Shown: one piece after another, positions 3,347-14,916 of the stretch
How positions within the stretch are numbered: the stretch's first letter is position 1
How the letters are laid out: each line of letters starts with the position of its first letter
NCBI GenBank assembly: GCA_013911135.1
Contig: JACERO010000077.1
Span: 1-35,086, forward strand
Direction: 5' to 3'
Source of the DNA: Candidatus Nitrosopumilus sp.
GTDB lineage: Archaea > Thermoproteota > Nitrososphaeria > Nitrososphaerales > Nitrosopumilaceae
DNA: 35,086 nucleotides
The notes under the pieces: generated by a model
What the model saw: the letters and a program-made list of their open reading frames with translations, nothing else
Databases searched by the model: none
Told to the model about the DNA's origin: nothing
Translations under genes and position numbers: made by a program

Positions 3347-5998
3347 TTATCCAGAAGTACAACCGCTGTATCCACAATCAATGCAGATACTACAACCTTC
3401 TACAAAGACTAGGTTGTTTTTGCATGTTAGACATAAACGATCTTCTGAAATCTCTTCTTGTATTACAGGTTCAGCTTTAAGATCATTCTCATGAACTTTA
3501 ATTGCAAGTGCAGCATTAACTTGTGATTTAATGTATGGATTTGTGATATTTGCTGTTACATAACCAGTAACGTACTCAGTTGGTGTAACCTCAAATGTTT
3601 TTTGCGCGTTTTCACTTGTCATATGAAGTACCTGCTTGTGTCGAGAACCGTCACGATAAACTGTAATTCCTTTTAGTCCTAATTCATGTGCTAACAGATA
3701 TGCAGATTTTACATCTTCTGCGGTAACATCATATGGCATGTTAATTGTTTTGGCAATTGCATTTCCAATCCAGTCTTGCCATACTCCTTGAGCCATAAGA
3801 TGATCAGCCCAATGAATATCCATTGCTGTTACGAAAACATCTTGCATCCATTGTGGAATTTCATCTAGTCCTTTCAATGAACCATAGTTGTCTGCAATCT
3901 TTGCAAGAATTTCATCGCTATATAGGCCATTTTCTTTTAAGACTTCTTCAACAATCTTGTTTGTATAAAAGAATCTTCCAACAGTAACTCTCTTTTCAAA
4001 CACAAGAGCAAATGCAGGTTCCATTCCGTTTGAACAATCTGCAATCATAGAAAGTGTACCAGTTGGAGCAACTGTGGTAGCCAAGACATGTCTAATACCA
4101 TGTATTTTAATTTTCTCAATTAATGCATCCCATTCATAGGAGTGAGATTCTTTAGGTTTTTCATAGTATCCAGATATAGGAATCTTTCCTTCAGGATATT
4201 CTGTCTTTGAGCAAAGTGGGAATTCACCACGAGATTTAGCAAGTGCAACACTTTCTTCCATTGAATAGTATGTTAGAGCTTCAGCTAGTTTGGATTGAAG
4301 TTCATATCCTTCTTTGGAGTTGTATGGAATTCTTAGTTTGTATAATAGATCAGCAACACCCATCACTCCAAGTCCAATTCTTCTAGACTCTTTTGATGCT
4401 ACATTGATTTCTTCAACTGGATAGTGATTTACATCAATAATATTATCCAGGAATTTTGTTGTCTTTCTAATTATTTCTTCATATCTTTGCCAATCAAATT
4501 CATAAGTTCCATCGGCTTGTCTCTTGACAAAATTAACCAAATTGATAGAACCAAGGTTACATGATTCGTATGGATAGAGACTTTGTTCACCACAAGGATT
4601 TGTTGCTCTTAGTGGTGCTTGTCTGGCTTTAGCAAATACATTGTATTTGTTAATTTGATCAAAGAAGATCAATCCAGGTTCTCCACTTCTCCATGCAGAT
4701 AGTGCAATCAGATCAATTAGTTGATGTGAATTAATTTCTTTAACTGGTTTGTTGTCACGTGGGCTACGTAAGACATAGTTGCCATCATCAGTGTTAACAA
4801 GTGAATTCCAAAAGTCTTCCCAAATACCAACACTTACGTTGAAATTTTCTAAAACACCTGGTTCTGTTTTATTTGTGATGAATTTTTCAACATTAGGATG
4901 CCATGCTTCAATGATTCCCATGTTTGCACCACGTCTTTTCCCCCCTTGTTTGACAACTTCAGTCACAGTATTGATGATATTCATGAAGGATACTGGCCCT
5001 GATGCAACACCAGATGTTGATGCTACAATATCACCTTCCTCACGAAGATCAGAGTAGTTTATTCCAACTCCACCGCCTGATTTGAAGATTAATGCTGCAT
5101 CAGAAGTTGTTTTCATGATTCGTTCCATGTCATCTCCCATACCAAGTACAAAGCATGCAGAAAGTTGTCCCAATCTTCCACCGGCATTCATCATTGTTGG
5201 TGAATTTGGTAGAAAGTCTTGCGAGGTCATCATCTCAAAATATTCAGTTATCTTATCTGAATAATCATCAAGTTTCTTTGCTGCAAGTAATGTCAAAAGA
5301 TCTTTGAAGCTAATCTTCATCTGACCTTTGTTTGCAAGTGTTACATAGTGATTTATCAAAGATCTGAAATGCCATTTGTTGAGATAATAATCTCTAACTT
5401 TGAATTTATAGTCAAATACATCTAGTTTTTCAAGATAAGATTTTGCTTCATCTATATCTTGTTGAGTATTTCCTGCTTTGTCAAATACTTGTGAATCATA
5501 TAGAATATCACCAACTCCTACTAGAATTGCAACTCTTTCAAACATTTGAGTTGGAGATTCAATAATCTCATTTTTTCCATTTCTAAAAAGATATCTTGAT
5601 GCTAGTACTCTCAAGCAGTTCAAATCAAATTTTTTAGAAACTGGATCAAGAGACTTTAGATTCAAGACTCTCTTTTTTTCATCTCTTAATTTTCTTCTCT
5701 CGTGTCTGTAAACTATGTATGCTTTTGCTATATCGCTATTACCGCTATCAATTAAAGTTGATTCTACAATATCCTGAATATCTTCAACAGTAGGCGTTCT
5801 AGAACTAGTAAATCCTTGTTCTACTAATTTGTCAACTACGCTATTTGCTAGTTGATCGGCTAGGCCACGATCGGCTTTAGAGGTGGCTGCTAATGCCCTG
5901 AATATAGCATTTGAAATTTTATCTTTATTGAAATTCGTTACTGCGCCACTACGCTTACGGATCTCATGGATAGTATTTTCTATTTGTGAATTGTCCAA
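3347..5998 (-). CDS. nrdJ: Adenosylcobalamin-dependent ribonucleotide reductase, class II
   Basis: Makes deoxyribonucleotides using a B12-generated radical, with no oxygen requirement. The 883-residue chain starts with an ATP-cone (about residues 12-105, KRSGAVTNFNKDKISNAI...), the allosteric nucleotide site. The reductase barrel follows, with redox cysteine C282 (SACFVLGM), the SGGGVGINYS loop at 307-316, the catalytic motif NPCGEQ at 467-472 (thiyl C469, E471), the redox partner C480 (SCNLGSINL), and the ATTVAPTGTLS phosphate-binding loop. The last 30 residues form a zinc ribbon (CLTC...CIDCG) and end in an extra Cys likely to shuttle electrons. Start is TTG at 5998, supported by GGGGAG seven bases upstream and by absence of an upstream ATG. 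It lies directly downstream of the HTH/ATP-cone/NrdD-like gene. Confidence 0.96.
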   Translation of the reverse strand: MDNSQIENTIHEIRKRSGAVTNFNKDKISNAIFRALAATSKADRGLADQLANSVVDKLVEQGFTSSRTPTVEDIQDIVESTLIDSGNSDIAKAYIVYRHERRKLRDEKKRVLNLKSLDPVSKKFDLNCLRVLASRYLFRNGKNEIIESPTQMFERVAILVGVGDILYDSQVFDKAGNTQQDIDEAKSYLEKLDVFDYKFKVRDYYLNKWHFRSLINHYVTLANKGQMKISFKDLLTLLAAKKLDDYSDKITEYFEMMTSQDFLPNSPTMMNAGGRLGQLSACFVLGMGDDMERIMKTTSDAALIFKSGGGVGINYSDLREEGDIVASTSGVASGPVSFMNIINTVTEVVKQGGKRRGANMGIIEAWHPNVEKFITNKTEPGVLENFNVSVGIWEDFWNSLVNTDDGNYVLRSPRDNKPVKEINSHQLIDLIALSAWRSGEPGLIFFDQINKYNVFAKARQAPLRATNPCGEQSLYPYESCNLGSINLVNFVKRQADGTYEFDWQRYEEIIRKTTKFLDNIIDVNHYPVEEINVASKESRRIGLGVMGVADLLYKLRIPYNSKEGYELQSKLAEALTYYSMEESVALAKSRGEFPLCSKTEYPEGKIPISGYYEKPKESHSYEWDALIEKIKIHGIRHVLATTVAPTGTLSMIADCSNGMEPAFALVFEKRVTVGRFFYTNKIVEEVLKENGLYSDEILAKIADNYGSLKGLDEIPQWMQDVFVTAMDIHWADHLMAQGVWQDWIGNAIAKTINMPYDVTAEDVKSAYLLAHELGLKGITVYRDGSRHKQVLHMTSENAQKTFEVTPTEYVTGYVTANITNPYIKSQVNAALAIKVHENDLKAEPVIQEEISEDRLCLTCKNNLVFVEGCSICIDCGYSGCTSG

Positions 5999-6045
5999 TT
6001 ATAATCTCCCCGTAGGTGTTATGATAGATATGGGTATAAATGATT
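5999..6045 (-). promoter_or_regulatory. nrdJ promoter and Shine-Dalgarno site
   Basis: On the minus strand CATTTATAC (complement of gtataaatg, 6034-6042) is a good TATA box. The purine-rich GGGGAG (complement of 6006-6011) stands seven bases before the TTG start at 5998. The rest of the 203-base gap (6046-6201) is A+T-rich with three copies of tgatc at about 6132, 6151 and 6172; I see no gene there. Confidence 0.6.
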
Positions 6046-6201
6046 CTGCAATTTTTTCTTAAAGCTCGTTCAATAATATTGACACAGCTAATATAAAGTT
6101 CATATTGAAAAAACTTTAACAATGAAAGCAATGATCGCCACATCTAAAACTGATCAAAAAGTTTTGAAAAATGATCGTAACTAGTTTTTCATTTACGAAT
6201 T

Positions 6202-8328
6202 TCAGATAATGTATGGTGACTTACACTTTGGACACTTGTCTTCAAATGGTTCATCTTTAAAACCACACTCACCACATATTGCAATTTTCTTAACAGGTTT
6301 AAAAGAAGAGACAAGCGTAGATGCTTTCTCAATTGATTTTTTGATTTCATCAACCTTTGCATCTTTGTCAATTTTCAATGTTACAAATAATCCTCCATTA
6401 AGTAATTTTGAGAACTTGGTACACTCAGTAATAGGCTCACTTTTGTTGGTATAGTCACCAATTTCAGAGGCGTTAATCATCACTCCTTCAGAATAGGAAT
6501 CACCATCCATTGAATTGAGAGCAGAATTCTTGCCATATTTCTCACCATCAAGAGTAGCAAAACGATATGAACCTTCAGTTTCAGTCATACAAATAGCCAC
6601 AGGATCACCTAATTCCTTGCCTTTTTTGGCTGCAACATCAACTGCGGTTTCAATAACTTTGTGAAGAATATTACGTCCTTCTTTGTTGTCTTTGAATCCA
6701 AGTATGTTAAAGACTGATTCTTTAAGTCCTACCAAGTTTACAACAAGAGAAACAGAACTTCTTTGCATGTATTGAGTATTCTTTGCAAGAATTGGATTAA
6801 GTCCTCTTCTAGTAAGATCTGAAATGTCTTTCTTTCTTAATGCCATTGAAGATAACGCAGGTTTCATTAGTAATGCAAGTCTTGCTCTAAAGTAAGTTTC
6901 ATCTTTGTTTGATTCAAATGCAAGTCTTGGAAGATTTATAGAAATAGATTGCAGTGTTATTGAAAGTGGGCCTGTATTCTTTACAGATCCATTTGTTACA
7001 CCATTACTAGACGTTTGACCTTGAGCAAACATTACTTTTCCACCAAGTGAAATTATTTCTGATACTGATTCTGAGACATCAGTTATCTTTCCTTTGTCAT
7101 GATCTATTATCAGACCAATTTTTGGGACTGGTGTTATCTTCGTATAATTTTTGTATGCGGTAATAATTGAATTAATTATTTTTGTATCAGTTCCCAACTG
7201 TAATCGAATTGAGATATTAGTACTTTTTTTGGTGTATTGGGAAGATGTTGATGCAGTTGCAAATGCATTAGTTAGTTTTTGTTCAAGTTCTGGAAGAGAC
7301 TTTGAATGTTTTGAAAACACCTGAACTAGCCCATCAAGCACAATTTCTTGTGAAGCTTCTTTGGAAAGAAGAGAAATTATGATAGATAATGAGCTTGTAA
7401 TCTCATCAAGTTGTTTTGATGCAGGAATTCTTGATACGTCAAGATATTTCCCACCAAGATCAATTCCATCTTCAATCAATTCTTTAACATTAACAAATAT
7501 TGTATCAGGAATCATGGACCAGATTCCAGGATTGGTAACATGCAAGTCTCCAGAAAGATGAGAATCTGCAACATCTTTTGGTAGGATATTAGTAAGTAAA
7601 TGTTCAGCAAATACTCTCTGTCCGGTGTTAAACAATAGGCCTTCAGCACCGTTATTCACATTATCCAAGTTGGAAATCATCTCCTGAACATCAAAAACAG
7701 GCAAACCTAGGCGTGCTAGTTTGTTTCTATATTCCTCGTGGCCATGCTCTAATAGAACAGAATTTACCAGTTCTCTGATAAGTGAGCCTGTTAGATAGGT
7801 AGTCTGATATTTGTAAATTCTATTTTCAACTTCTTCAGTAATTTTTTGTGCTAATTCTAATGGAAGACTTCCTTCACGTACTAGTGATTGAATAATTTTA
7901 TGAGAATTGAATTCTTCAATGGATTCATGTGATGTTCTAACATACATTTTTCCACTTTCAATAATTGATCTTTCTTCAATTTGTCTTGCCAAGCTCAAAA
8001 CTAGTTTTCCAAGATTTGTAATAGTATAGCGTCTTTCAGATTTGTTAAGTGCAACAAGGGATTGTCTTAGTAGTTTTCTCAAGTGATATGCAAATTTACC
8101 ACTTTCTTTTTTGGACTTGAATCCAGCCAGGGATTTTAATTCAGAGTAAGTTAATGGGCCCTTAGAATTTAGGATTCGGAGGATATCAATTCTATTTGGA
8201 CTTGCCATAACAGAGAAGATCATTCTGACACGTTTTGATGTAGACTGTAAAATTCCACTTCTCTTTAGTTCTGGTTCTGAATCGGAATCTAAGTTAGAAT
8301 CTAAATCTAATTCTTCTTCTAATTCCAT
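6202..8328 (-). CDS. Winged-helix / ATP-cone / degenerate NrdD fusion, putative nucleotide-sensing regulator
   Basis: A 708-residue protein with three parts. Residues 1-22 are acidic. Residues 31-113 form an ArsR-like winged helix (MASPNRIDILRIL..., FAYHLRKL..., YTITNLGKLV). Residues 128-205 are an ATP-cone (VRTSHESIEEFNSHKIIQSL, then GSLIRELVNSVLLEHGHEE). The remaining 500 residues follow anaerobic ribonucleotide reductase NrdD: VADSHLSGDLHVTNP at 253-267, TEGSYRFATLD, and a terminal zinc ribbon C685/C688...C699/C702. It cannot be a working NrdD: the paired active-site Cys after the GDLH motif are missing, and the chain ends at the zinc ribbon with no glycyl-radical RxxGY loop. No activase gene is nearby. 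The gene lies 203 bases upstream of nrdJ on the same strand. I infer a dATP/ATP-responsive DNA-binding regulator; the regulated target is unproven. Confidence 0.75.
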   Translation of the reverse strand: MELEEELDLDSNLDSDSEPELKRSGILQSTSKRVRMIFSVMASPNRIDILRILNSKGPLTYSELKSLAGFKSKKESGKFAYHLRKLLRQSLVALNKSERRYTITNLGKLVLSLARQIEERSIIESGKMYVRTSHESIEEFNSHKIIQSLVREGSLPLELAQKITEEVENRIYKYQTTYLTGSLIRELVNSVLLEHGHEEYRNKLARLGLPVFDVQEMISNLDNVNNGAEGLLFNTGQRVFAEHLLTNILPKDVADSHLSGDLHVTNPGIWSMIPDTIFVNVKELIEDGIDLGGKYLDVSRIPASKQLDEITSSLSIIISLLSKEASQEIVLDGLVQVFSKHSKSLPELEQKLTNAFATASTSSQYTKKSTNISIRLQLGTDTKIINSIITAYKNYTKITPVPKIGLIIDHDKGKITDVSESVSEIISLGGKVMFAQGQTSSNGVTNGSVKNTGPLSITLQSISINLPRLAFESNKDETYFRARLALLMKPALSSMALRKKDISDLTRRGLNPILAKNTQYMQRSSVSLVVNLVGLKESVFNILGFKDNKEGRNILHKVIETAVDVAAKKGKELGDPVAICMTETEGSYRFATLDGEKYGKNSALNSMDGDSYSEGVMINASEIGDYTNKSEPITECTKFSKLLNGGLFVTLKIDKDAKVDEIKKSIEKASTLVSSFKPVKKIAICGECGFKDEPFEDKCPKCKSPYII

Positions 8329-8483
8329 GCATTTTTTTTAATCAAGAGGTAAATAAGACTTATGACTGCATCAATTCAGACAATTTTTGATCAGATTTGT
8401 TGTTAACAGACAAAGATTTCTAATTTTAAAGATCTAATTTTTTAAAAAATAGAAAAATGATTATGTCAAGAGATCTTTTAGGA

Positions 8484-8645
8484 TCAGTTTTCTTTGACGT
8501 CAAGTGAAAACTCGGATGTAGAAAGTTTCTGTCCACATGATGGACACTTACCATTATATGGGTTCATTACATCTTTTAAGGATTTTAACATCTTCATGTT
8601 TGTAATCTTTTCTCCACATTTACCACATGTAACTTCTACAGACAT
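8484..8645 (-). CDS. Small zinc-ribbon protein (53 aa)
   Basis: ATG at 8645 opens a 53-residue frame ending TGA at 8484. The protein begins MSVEVTCGKCGEKI and has a second pair in GKCPSCGQKL, so CxxC-x23-CxxC forms a complete zinc ribbon, with a lysine-rich helical linker (MKMLKSLKDVMNPY). The four cysteines in ribbon spacing make this far more credible than the overlapping plus-strand frame. No catalytic domain is present; such ribbons often act as adaptors in transcription, translation or protein complexes, but I cannot name this one. It stands alone between the reductase regulator and the DUF35/thiolase pair. Confidence 0.75.
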   Translation of the reverse strand: MSVEVTCGKCGEKITNMKMLKSLKDVMNPYNGKCPSCGQKLSTSEFSLDVKEN

Positions 8646-8715
8646 GAAAATGATCACTTATGCAAAATTATTAAGAATCGATTTTGATTTTTTTTAATAA
8701 TTCAAGCAAATTATT

Positions 8716-9081
8716 TTACTGTTTTTCAATGATGATTCCACGATCATCAAAACCTGTTATTTTGGCTTTTGTTCCAACTGGTAGATCTTCAGGGGTAGCA
8801 ATTCCTGCCATAAATCCAGAAATTCTCAAATGTGTATCATCTAGTTGAAGTACGACAAAGGCATATGGAGTATATTTTTCAAAGCCTGCAGGAGCGACAG
8901 TAATTATGGTATAAGTAGCAATTGTGCCTACACCATCTAAAAGGACATCCTCAAATCCTTTGCTGCCACATTTTAGGCAATAATAGGCTGTAGATAAATG
9001 AAGATAGCCACAGTCAGTACATTTGTGAGTTAGGAGTTTGCCTACTTTAGCATTTTCTATAAGTTGCTCTTCAACAGACAT
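8716..9081 (-). CDS. DUF35 acyl-CoA-associated OB-fold protein with zinc ribbon
   Basis: A 121-residue protein with an N-terminal rubredoxin-like zinc ribbon (KCTDCGYLHL...YYCLKCGSKGF, about residues 21-43) followed by an OB-fold (GVGTIATYTIITVAPAGFE...PYAFVVLQLDD...). This is the DUF35/YdgS-type architecture that, in archaea, sits in a complex with thiolases and channels CoA intermediates; in methanogens it bridges thiolase and HMG-CoA synthase. The frame is open to 9132, but the ATG at 9081 gives the usual N-terminus and lies one base after the thiolase stop, so the pair should be translationally coupled. No HMG-CoA synthase gene is adjacent here. Confidence 0.92.
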   Translation of the reverse strand: MSVEEQLIENAKVGKLLTHKCTDCGYLHLSTAYYCLKCGSKGFEDVLLDGVGTIATYTIITVAPAGFEKYTPYAFVVLQLDDTHLRISGFMAGIATPEDLPVGTKAKITGFDDRGIIIEKQ

Positions 9082-9082
9082 T

Positions 9083-10246
9083 TTACACACTTTGAAACAC
9101 ATGAACAGCACAACTTGCACCAGTTGCACCAAAGTTATGAGTTAAACCAATTTTTGCATCGTTAACAGTTCTTTGATCAGCATTTCCGGTAAGTTGATCA
9201 AATACTTCTACTACTTGTCCAACACCTGTGGCTCCAATTGGATGTCCTTTTGATTTAAGACCACCTGAGGGATTAATTGAAATATCAGAATTTAATTTTG
9301 TTTTATCTTCACGAATGGCTTCAACACCTTTTCCTTTTTCAAAGAATCCCAAGTCTTCAGTATCAACTATTTCTGCAATTGTAAAGCAATCGTGTACTTC
9401 AGCAAAGTCTATATCTCTTGCCGTAATGCCTGCCATTTTGTATGCAGCTTCTGCTGCAATTTTTGTACTTGGAATTGTTGTTAGATGTTCACGTCCTTGC
9501 AATGCAGCAGGTGATCCACCTCTCCCAGAACCAATTACTTCAATGTAATCACCACCATTTTCTTTTGCAAACTTTTCAGAACAAAGAATTACAGAACTTG
9601 CACCATCAGAGAATGGACAACAATCATAAAGTTTGAGAGGACTTGCAACTACTGGAGAATTCATTACATCATCAATTGTAATTTTCTTTTGCATGTGAGC
9701 TTTTGGATTAAGTACACCGTTATCATGATTCTTTACTGCAACTTTTGCAAAGTCTTCTTCAGTTGCATCAAACTCTGTCAAGTAAGCTCTTGCCATTGAT
9801 GCAAACAATCCTGGAAATGATGCACCAGCTTGACCTTCATAAAAAAAGTCTGAACAATATGCAAAGTAAGTTGTTGTCCATTCAGTTCCTGTGTGAGTTA
9901 CTTTTTCAACACCAGTCACTAAAAGACAATCATAAAATCCGGCTGCAACATTTGCATACGCCTCTCTAAAAGATACAGAGCCGCTTCCACATGCAGACTC
10001 TATTGTCAATGATGGTTTATCTGGAATTCCTAATCTGCTCATTAAGACAGGACCAAGATGTACTTGCTTATCTGCAACTCCAAAGACGTTTGAAATGTAG
10101 GATGCTTTGATATCTTTTGGAACAATTCCTGCACTTTCTATGGCTGAAACTGATGCTTGAGTAGTGATATCGGCTATACTATCAGCCAATTTACCATATT
10201 TGGTACTACCAGCACCAAGAACACAAACCTTTTCCACTAATGTCAC
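9083..10246 (-). CDS. Thiolase (acetyl-CoA C-acetyltransferase, SCP-x type)
   Basis: Condenses or cleaves acyl-CoA thioesters. The 387-residue chain has the nucleophilic Cys in ESACGSGS (C86), the HDCFTIAE motif, the GHPIGATGVGQV loop with the catalytic His, and GATGASCAVHVF at the C-terminus. The archaeal SCP-x type pairs with DUF35, as here. Possible roles are acetoacetyl-CoA formation for mevalonate or acetoacetyl-CoA cleavage in the thaumarchaeal 3-hydroxypropionate/4-hydroxybutyrate cycle; sequence alone does not decide. The first possible start is GTG at 10246, but GTG at 10237 (giving MEKVCVLGAG) lies about 26 bases from a TATA box at 10260-10268 and is the better start for a leaderless transcript. 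Confidence 0.92.
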   Translation of the reverse strand: MTLVEKVCVLGAGSTKYGKLADSIADITTQASVSAIESAGIVPKDIKASYISNVFGVADKQVHLGPVLMSRLGIPDKPSLTIESACGSGSVSFREAYANVAAGFYDCLLVTGVEKVTHTGTEWTTTYFAYCSDFFYEGQAGASFPGLFASMARAYLTEFDATEEDFAKVAVKNHDNGVLNPKAHMQKKITIDDVMNSPVVASPLKLYDCCPFSDGASSVILCSEKFAKENGGDYIEVIGSGRGGSPAALQGREHLTTIPSTKIAAEAAYKMAGITARDIDFAEVHDCFTIAEIVDTEDLGFFEKGKGVEAIREDKTKLNSDISINPSGGLKSKGHPIGATGVGQVVEVFDQLTGNADQRTVNDAKIGLTHNFGATGASCAVHVFQSV

Positions 10247-13194: not shown

Positions 13195-14916
13195 TTATGA
13201 TTGAATCCTTAAAATTCCTTCTTTGATCAAAAATTGAATTGCACTGATAAATTCATCATCCGAAGAGTTTCCATTTACCCAAACACCTGTAGTGAATTTA
13301 ATCCATGAGGGGATTTCAGAAGAGTCTCCATCAGAACCTTGGGCGGTTGGTGGAATTACAATAATTTTCTCTTCAATAAGGAACTTAATTGCGTTAATAA
13401 ATTCATCATTTGAAGAATTTCCATCTACCCAAATGCCCGTAGTAAATTTAATCCATGATGGAATTGCAGAAGGTGGTAATACTTCTAGTGGAGGTGATGT
13501 AGTGTTTGTGAGACTTGGTCCAATCTCAATAACTCCTGAACCAATGCCAGCATACTTTGCGTTATAGTCTAATCCTGTTCCATAAACTAGAATATCAATT
13601 CGGTATTGTCCTTGTGATGGAATACGGATTTTTTGAACATCAATTCCTTCTGTAGAAACAATACCAGGATTTAGAGGATCATCTCCGGAGAATCTTTCTA
13701 ATTCTTGTTCATTCTCATCAATAAATGAAATTGCATACCTAATGTCTTTAATTAGATCTCTGTTTTCATCAAAGAATGTTATTTCAAAAGGCACGTCATT
13801 ACCGGCACCATAATTTCCATCCCATGAAATATTCACAGTGGTTGGAACTTGTTCATAGTTTGTAGTATCAACAAGATAAAATTCAGTTGAACTTTTTGAT
13901 ACTTCACTAAGTGGAACTAGTTTCAAGTCCATCTTTGTGTTGTCATAATTACTTGGTCCCAATGCTTGATTAATTTTTTGTAATTCATTTTTTGTAATTA
14001 GGAAATGAACAATGTTGGTATCCTCATATGAATAAGGATCATTAAGTAATGCCCTTTGATCAATTTCTACACCATTAACATATCCTTTGAATTGTTTTCC
14101 TTCTGCATAAGGTGTAAATGATTTTGGAACTCTGACTTCTTCATGCACAACTTGTACCAAGTCGACATAATCTGGACTCCAATCAAATGGCATATCAAAA
14201 GAAATTGAATTGTCAGATTGATCAAATTTGAAATTATCAACTTCATCATAGTATGTTTTTATAACAACTGGAATTTCTTCAGCGTTTGCAGTCTGGAAAA
14301 AAAAGTCTTGTTCTTGTGCAATGCTAATAAAAGTATCATAAGTTAGTCTTTCTAGAAGTACAGTTCTTGGACTAGTAGCAGCTTCAATGTCAATGGTAAT
14401 TTTGTATAAACCACCTTTTACAAATATTGGACCCTGAATTGTTGCTCTTCCACAAGTATCTAAGTTATCATCAGTACATGCTGGTCCTTGTACGTATAGA
14501 GCTCCAGGAGCACTAACATGTTCAGAACCAAAATAATCTGTACAGTCTATTAGATTAAATTCATCACACCCAGATATTGGTTTTATTTTAACATCCAATC
14601 TTCCATCTGGGTCATAAAACAAATTTCTAGCTAAAAGTTCGCCACTTTGCCATAGTTCTACTCTGTATGTTACTTGATCAAGAGTCTCATCAGTTAATGT
14701 ATCGAAAAAACGTACTTGCATGTTAGCAGAACTAATGTCTCCTACTGTAATATCAGATGGACTTAGTTGTGTTCGTACAGTTACTTCCATGTCACCAAAC
14801 GTTAGAGGTGGTGCTTGATCTCCTCCAAGTCCATGTCCAAATGCATCTGGAAGAATAGCAGAAACGGTAAAAATACCAATAATCATAATGAATAGCGCAA
14901 ACTTGTTGTACAACAA
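13195..14916 (-). CDS. Secreted multidomain protein with two C-terminal 'PSWIKFTTG' repeats
   Basis: A 573-residue exported protein. The signal peptide covers about residues 1-26 and the mature protein starts near HGLGG. The body is beta-rich, with four Cys in residues 114-150 that may pair. The C-terminus has two near-identical 38-residue units starting at residues 485 and 535 ([29 protein letters not shown]), a repeat common in secreted Nitrosopumilus proteins. Residues 200-310 align with the product of 23293-24669 (e.g. FDMPFDWS versus [18 protein letters not shown] versus VVHVEVHFPK), so the two are paralogs; only that one has a PEFG tail. Start is TTG at 14916 (another TTG follows); a TATA box at about 14938-14947 supports it. 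Function unknown; a cell-surface role is likely. Confidence 0.8.
13198..13464 (-). repeat. Two tandem coding repeats, 150-base period
   Basis: Units begin at 13464 and 13314 and each encode about 38 residues (PSWIKFTTG...DEFI.AI.FLI). They are nearly identical at protein level but differ at several synonymous sites, so the duplication is not very recent. An acidic, Ser-rich linker (GSDGDSSE) separates them. Confidence 0.8.

Follow-up and report, generated by a model that had tools for sequence, protein, structure and literature searches.

A putative regulator of ribonucleotide reductase genes in Nitrososphaeria, apparently derived from a degenerate class III reductase

Introduction

How ribonucleotide reductase (RNR) is controlled determines dNTP levels and, through them, the rates of replication and mutation; bacteria possess the regulator NrdR. 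The Nitrososphaeria, a class that includes the ammonia-oxidising archaea, rank with the most abundant microbes in the ocean and in soils. According to three accounts (PMC9110341, PMC12176259, PMC12051234), NrdR occurs as nrdRJ in Streptomyces, controls RNR together with its own gene, and acts at helix-phased sites. NrdR becomes a DNA-binding tetramer when loaded with ATP plus dATP, and about three helical turns separate its boxes (PMC9110341). Few archaea have NrdR (PMC12176259); a table in PMC3019208 gives it, among archaea, for haloarchaea with a class I RNR. A second relevant system is the class III reductase NrdD itself, for which the roles of the NxN flap and the catalytic residues have been described (PMC11226230).

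Here we analyse a gene of Candidatus Nitrosopumilus sp. within contig JACERO010000077.1, all 35,086 nucleotides of which we refer to as the window. We think it likely that its product is a nucleotide-responsive transcription regulator dedicated to RNR supply, descended from a dead NrdD and acting on the reductase gene and probably on its own gene, and we refer to it as the regulator.

Results

Domains and fold of the regulator

The gene, the parts of its product, and its neighbour are located as follows.

Regulator gene: 6202..8328, minus strand, from the ATG at 8328 to the stop at 6202; 708 aa; winged helix, ATP-cone, inactive NrdD body and zinc ribbon
Winged helix (DUF7347/HTH_20), residues 37-111: 7996..8220, minus strand
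ATP-cone (Pfam), residues 128-200: 7729..7947, minus strand
NrdD-fold body, about residues 227-680: 6289..7650, minus strand; lacks the NxN flap, the beta-1 Cys (T276) and the finger-loop Cys pair (G443-V444)
Four-Cys zinc ribbon, C685, C688, C699 and C702: 6223..6276, minus strand; the expected glycyl-radical loop is missing after it
nrdJ, class II (B12-dependent) RNR with its own ATP-cone: 3347..5998, minus strand; TIGR02504 at 710.8 bits; predicted target

A first-pass annotation, made from the letters alone, had placed a gene at 6202-8328, and these coordinates stand, with the correction that it lies on the minus strand. It had also read the product as an ArsR-like winged helix, an ATP-cone and an NrdD-like body with a zinc ribbon, and Pfam matches above the curated cut-offs, together with a fold search, bear this out. 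The winged helix matches with E 2.8e-10, PF24038 scoring 40.7 bits (cut-off 27.6) and PF12840 32.5 bits (cut-off 27.0); the ATP-cone matches PF03477 with 34 bits (cut-off 25.8; E 4.5e-8); and the NRDD match has an E of 1.4e-25 for the protein, its best stretch being residues 453-704. No NCBIfam equivalog reaches its cut-off with the regulator protein, TIGR02487 scoring 82 bits against a cut-off of 326, and the family is thus unnamed in NCBIfam. We found no NRDD match in the window's genome besides the regulator and only two ATP-cones, one in the regulator and one in NrdJ; that of the regulator is closer to the archaeal NrdD ATP-cone than to the ATP-cone of the window's NrdJ.

An AlphaFold2 model of the regulator, built from the aligned sequences of 55 class members, has a mean pLDDT of 76 and a pTM of 0.73, with most of the body between 75 and 93. 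The structure prediction proposed in the first-pass annotation came out as expected there: in a Foldseek search of the PDB, the 36 best matches to the model are all class III RNR chains (best E 2.4e-22, TM 0.47-0.68, 10-17% identity). A viral fold library returned only known phage and virus reductases and nothing closer. As modelled, the regulator keeps the NrdD fold.

Loss of the catalytic residues

In the window protein the Cys that follows the GDLH motif is replaced by T276, the finger-loop Cys pair reads G443-V444, and the chain ends six residues past the last zinc Cys, so that there is no glycyl-radical loop; both the missing Cys and the missing loop had been noticed at first reading. To place these losses in the family we used a residue alignment of 116 family rows, in which the window protein is counted twice and some rows are near-copies, with seven true NrdDs. 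Every one of the true NrdDs has the NxN flap, both Cys of the finger-loop pair and the beta-1 Cys, and the radical Gly-Tyr is reached and kept in six of them, the seventh row being cut off. None of the 116 family rows has the beta-1 Cys (Thr stands there in 74) and none has the finger-loop Cys, the radical initiator (Gly instead in 110), while the first Asn of the NxN flap is missing in 115. The RVxGY radical motif is likewise found in none of the 116; two rows retain a Gly alone, and in most the tail is missing altogether. Nitrososphaeria members have their C-terminus just past the zinc ribbon, and members from other classes carry a degenerate tail in which the radical Gly has become Ala, Ser or Asn. 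All four zinc Cys are kept in about 109 of the 116 rows. The comparison of homologs for Cys and Gly loss that the first-pass annotation called for therefore came out in its favour, and we conclude that, as judged from these residues, the whole family is catalytically dead.

Distribution and origin

We searched the phylum for family members and found a regulator match in 194 of 200 Nitrososphaeria genomes, or about 190 when four weak ones (E above 1e-60) are left out. Three genomes of family f13 within this class (G002, G006, G017) have nrdJ and no regulator match, and represent natural cases of gene loss. Members with the same three domains, above or near the Pfam cut-offs, also occur in other classes of the phylum, which we suspect to be Bathyarchaeia and their relatives. 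Four of the members from these other classes (L071, L072, L092, L093) are shorter, at 539-654 aa, their reductase body having decayed further, and in three of them (L071, L072, L093) the zinc ribbon is gone.

Conservation is uneven along the chain. Residues 69-86 of the winged helix (G-F-K-S-K-K-E-S-G-K-F-A-Y-H-L-R-K-L) vary hardly or not at all among 55 class sequences, and the mean identity of the window protein within the class is 67% over residues 30-300 versus 43% in the C-terminal half. In a tree of 64 rows all 57 family rows fall in one clade (SH-aLRT 99), separate from the seven true NrdDs, including true NrdDs encoded in the same genomes. By this tree the family has a single origin, apart from true NrdD.

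Genomic neighbours

The first-pass annotation had the regulator gene immediately upstream of nrdJ, and this holds: nrdJ lies directly downstream on the same minus strand, with a gap of 203 bp. The linkage extends across Nitrososphaeria, where the gene is near-universal, nrdJ adjoining it in 77 of 80 named loci of GTDB species (the nrdJ-search hits of L187 and L210 being the regulator itself); the contig breaks off right after the regulator in the remaining three. Most often nrdJ follows on the same strand, and in L137-L139, L154 and L079-L081 the two are convergent. The adjacent reductase varies: in many loci it is 60-90% identical to the window's NrdJ and in others near 40%, and some types have no detected ATP-cone (the L051 type, with TSCPD, and the L054 type, with PF08471). 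In five loci from other classes (L055, L063, L065, L068, L097) the adjoining gene is of the NrdD type, with the radical motif intact in four of them and the fifth (L097) truncated in the stretch analysed. In other-class loci the regulator is also found convergent with pyrB, or beside pyrI or dcd, and in one case (L086) beside a NUDIX gene; families f12, f15 and f16 have no nrdJ in the stretch around it. No NrdR (TIGR00244) scores over the cut-off in any of 120 class genomes, and none matches in the window's genome. The NrdG activase (TIGR02491), whose presence would have counted against the first-pass annotation, is also without a match over the cut-off in 120 class genomes, the weak matches reaching at most 44.5 bits.

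Two further reading frames in the window deserve mention. Directly upstream of the regulator and on the same strand lies a 53-aa zinc-ribbon ORF (8484-8645, minus; CGKCG...CPSCG), the 3' end of which is conserved in Nitrosopumilaceae. Farther away is a 573-aa ORF (13195-14916, minus) that matches nothing in Pfam up to an E of 1.

Candidate operators

The regions before the two genes contain the following elements.

Regulator upstream region: 8329..8483, minus strand; GATC at 8389, 8431, 8472 and 8482, spaced 42, 41 and 10 bp
Conserved TATA-like CTTATTTA: 8350-8357, upstream of the regulator gene
Regulator-nrdJ intergenic region: 5999..6201, minus strand; GATC at 6133, 6152 and 6173, spaced 19 and 21 bp

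We examined the 200 bp before each gene at 41 loci, nearly all from Nitrosopumilaceae and related in sequence, and there GATC is the most over-represented tetramer both before the regulator (174 versus 38.6 expected) and before nrdJ (132 versus 34.1). Its density is 12.4/kb in the two promoter regions versus 3.8/kb elsewhere between genes in the same loci. The pairwise distances peak at 10-11, 19-21, 31-32, 40-42 and 60-61 bp, and at a period of 10.5 bp they give a mean cosine of 0.42, compared with -0.045 +- 0.040 when sites are placed at random (highest value in 1000 placements, 0.093). Phasing is best near 10.25 bp; in genus representatives the mean cosine is 0.58, and no other tetramer with enough pairs is phased as strongly as GATC. 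These statistics point to a candidate operator common to the regulator and nrdJ promoters in Nitrosopumilaceae.

GATC triplets spaced 9-12 bp are scarce, at zero to six per genome in 30 genomes, and in nine of the 30 (G174, G194, G191, G075, G044, G071, G049, G034, G018) one lies just upstream of the regulator. As a means of finding a wider regulon the triplets were set aside, the remaining hits being few and mixed and some of them inside genes. In genus g12 (L125, L127, L128) such an array is found before the gene of a TrmB-like regulator as well.

In Nitrososphaeraceae and their allies GATC is not enriched in the promoters (3.1 versus 3.8/kb). Since the recognition region of the winged helix is nonetheless conserved, GATC may serve another factor, and we put the chance that it is the regulator's own site at about even. 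In other lineages half-sites of the TTGAC type top the over-represented motifs. The density of TTGAY in the two target regions is 13.7 and 14.6/kb versus 6.5/kb in other intergenic sequence, and in further comparisons 10.5 and 14.7 versus 3.1/kb, and 10.3 and 11.0 versus 7.1/kb; this motif was chosen after looking, which makes it weaker evidence than GATC. The strict palindrome TTGAC-N4-6-GTCAA was rejected as a general operator, as it is missing from the locus in family f4.

Other conserved sequence is present in the regulator-nrdJ intergenic region. It contains CTTTTTGATCAGTTTT, which resembles TTTTTGATCAGATT upstream of the regulator in the opposite orientation relative to the genes, and a conserved TGTCAA...TTGA block. 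At about 6078-6110 (minus strand), upstream of nrdJ, a near-palindrome TATGAAGTTCATA is followed by a GTGTCAAT block, an arrangement conserved in Nitrosopumilaceae of which the window copy is TATGAACTTTATA; the near-palindrome could be a second operator. An Rfam scan of 5000-9500 gave no known RNA element at the gathering score.

Discussion

Proposed mechanism

The sequences, the model and the tree show that an archaeal class III reductase, an NrdD with an ATP-cone, was duplicated and gained an N-terminal winged helix. The ATP-cone, the NrdD fold and the zinc ribbon survive in the duplicate; both catalytic Cys are lost, as are the substrate flap and the glycyl-radical loop. From these domains we infer that the regulator binds both nucleotide and DNA. 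It is probably an NrdD-like dimer, in which the ATP-cone, perhaps together with remnants of the effector site at the dimer interface, would read ATP versus dATP. The nucleotide state would shift the winged helices, which are predicted to bind the statistically phased candidate sites before the regulator's own gene and before the reductase gene beside it: GATC in Nitrosopumilaceae and, over a wider range, perhaps TTGAY half-sites. If NrdR is a guide, the expected effect of high dATP would be to promote repression.

Alternative explanations

The protein might instead be a regulatory pseudoenzyme subunit, its dead NrdD body binding the neighbouring reductase to tune activity or oligomeric state. 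In that case the winged helix would make protein-protein contacts or form a dimer and would not bind DNA. Archaeal winged helices are able to make such contacts, and the regulator retains the whole RNR fold; moreover, ATP-cones are known to act on reductase proteins (PMC11226230). However, the neighbouring RNR switches among unlike class II types and the NrdD type, which a specific partnership would hardly survive, in other classes pyrB, pyrI or dcd often stands beside the regulator instead, and the recognition region of the winged helix is among the most invariant parts of the protein. That the regulator stays by nucleotide genes while the enzyme changes favours regulation over a fixed protein partner, and we consider a subunit role unlikely. 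The same neighbours could be taken to mean that it is a pyrimidine or general nucleotide regulator with its main targets elsewhere (pyrB, pyrI, dcd), the nrdJ linkage being just one local arrangement, and in many other-class genomes the neighbour is indeed pyrB or pyrI rather than an RNR. Convergent neighbours have no common promoter, so the pyrB adjacency is weak evidence for regulation, and against such a role stand the nearly total nrdJ linkage in Nitrososphaeria and the phased sites in both the regulator and nrdJ promoters; we think it quite improbable.

Retention of the NrdD fold and zinc ribbon might also be expected of a reductase that still works, by some unknown radical mechanism. With both catalytic Cys, the NxN flap and the RVxGY motif lost, no NrdG above the cut-off and a complete class II RNR next door, we rejected a working class III RNR and give this idea very little credence. 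Least credible of all is a decaying pseudogene: the catalytic residues are gone and a few members are broken (one internal stop in each of G151, G199 and G072), but open frames are intact at 40-90% identity over the whole class, the winged-helix core and zinc Cys are invariant, and the Cys-to-Gly swap is fixed in 110 of the 116 rows. This conservation contradicts the pseudogene reading, which we rejected.

Regulation of RNR supply by a nucleotide-responsive transcription factor is thus the reading we prefer. The findings suggest that these archaea have a switch, so far undescribed, by which reductase production is matched to nucleotide supply; a search of a collection of open-access papers found no report of an architecture combining winged helix, ATP-cone and dead NrdD. 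We lean towards the broader view that this is the first transcription factor made from a whole dead RNR, found throughout Nitrososphaeria and in further classes, staying beside a reductase gene that has been swapped, and reading the dNTP pool through the ATP-cone and the old effector site. If correct, a dedicated RNR regulator in Nitrososphaeria would fill the archaeal NrdR gap, and a dead enzyme would have been reused as a genetic sensor with an operator that is directly testable.

Comparison with known systems

Like NrdD (class III RNR; PF13597, TIGR02487), the regulator has an ATP-cone, a barrel fold and a four-Cys zinc ribbon; unlike NrdD, it has no catalytic Cys, NxN flap, glycyl-radical loop or NrdG above the cut-off, and carries an extra winged helix. 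With archaeal ArsR-like winged-helix regulators (DUF7347, HVO_A0261_N) it shares a winged helix with a G-K-F-A-Y-H-L recognition region, although in this family the domain is fused with an ATP-cone and a dead reductase.

The first-pass annotation had suggested a counterpart of NrdR, which is apt as an analogy and fails as homology of the DNA-binding part. Both proteins join an ATP-cone to a DNA-binding part and are encoded beside RNR genes, and the predicted control of RNR and of the regulator's own gene and the helix-phased candidate sites are also NrdR-like. The DNA-binding part of the regulator, however, is an N-terminal winged helix, whereas that of NrdR is an N-terminal zinc ribbon directly before the ATP-cone; the regulator's zinc ribbon is C-terminal and of the NrdD type. 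With its whole dead NrdD body the regulator is four to five times larger, its candidate sites are GATC or TTGAY rather than NrdR boxes, and the NrdR model TIGR00244 is absent from the NCBIfam matches of the protein. The best reading of these likenesses and differences is that the regulator would work like NrdR, by analogy, through a DNA-binding part that is not homologous.
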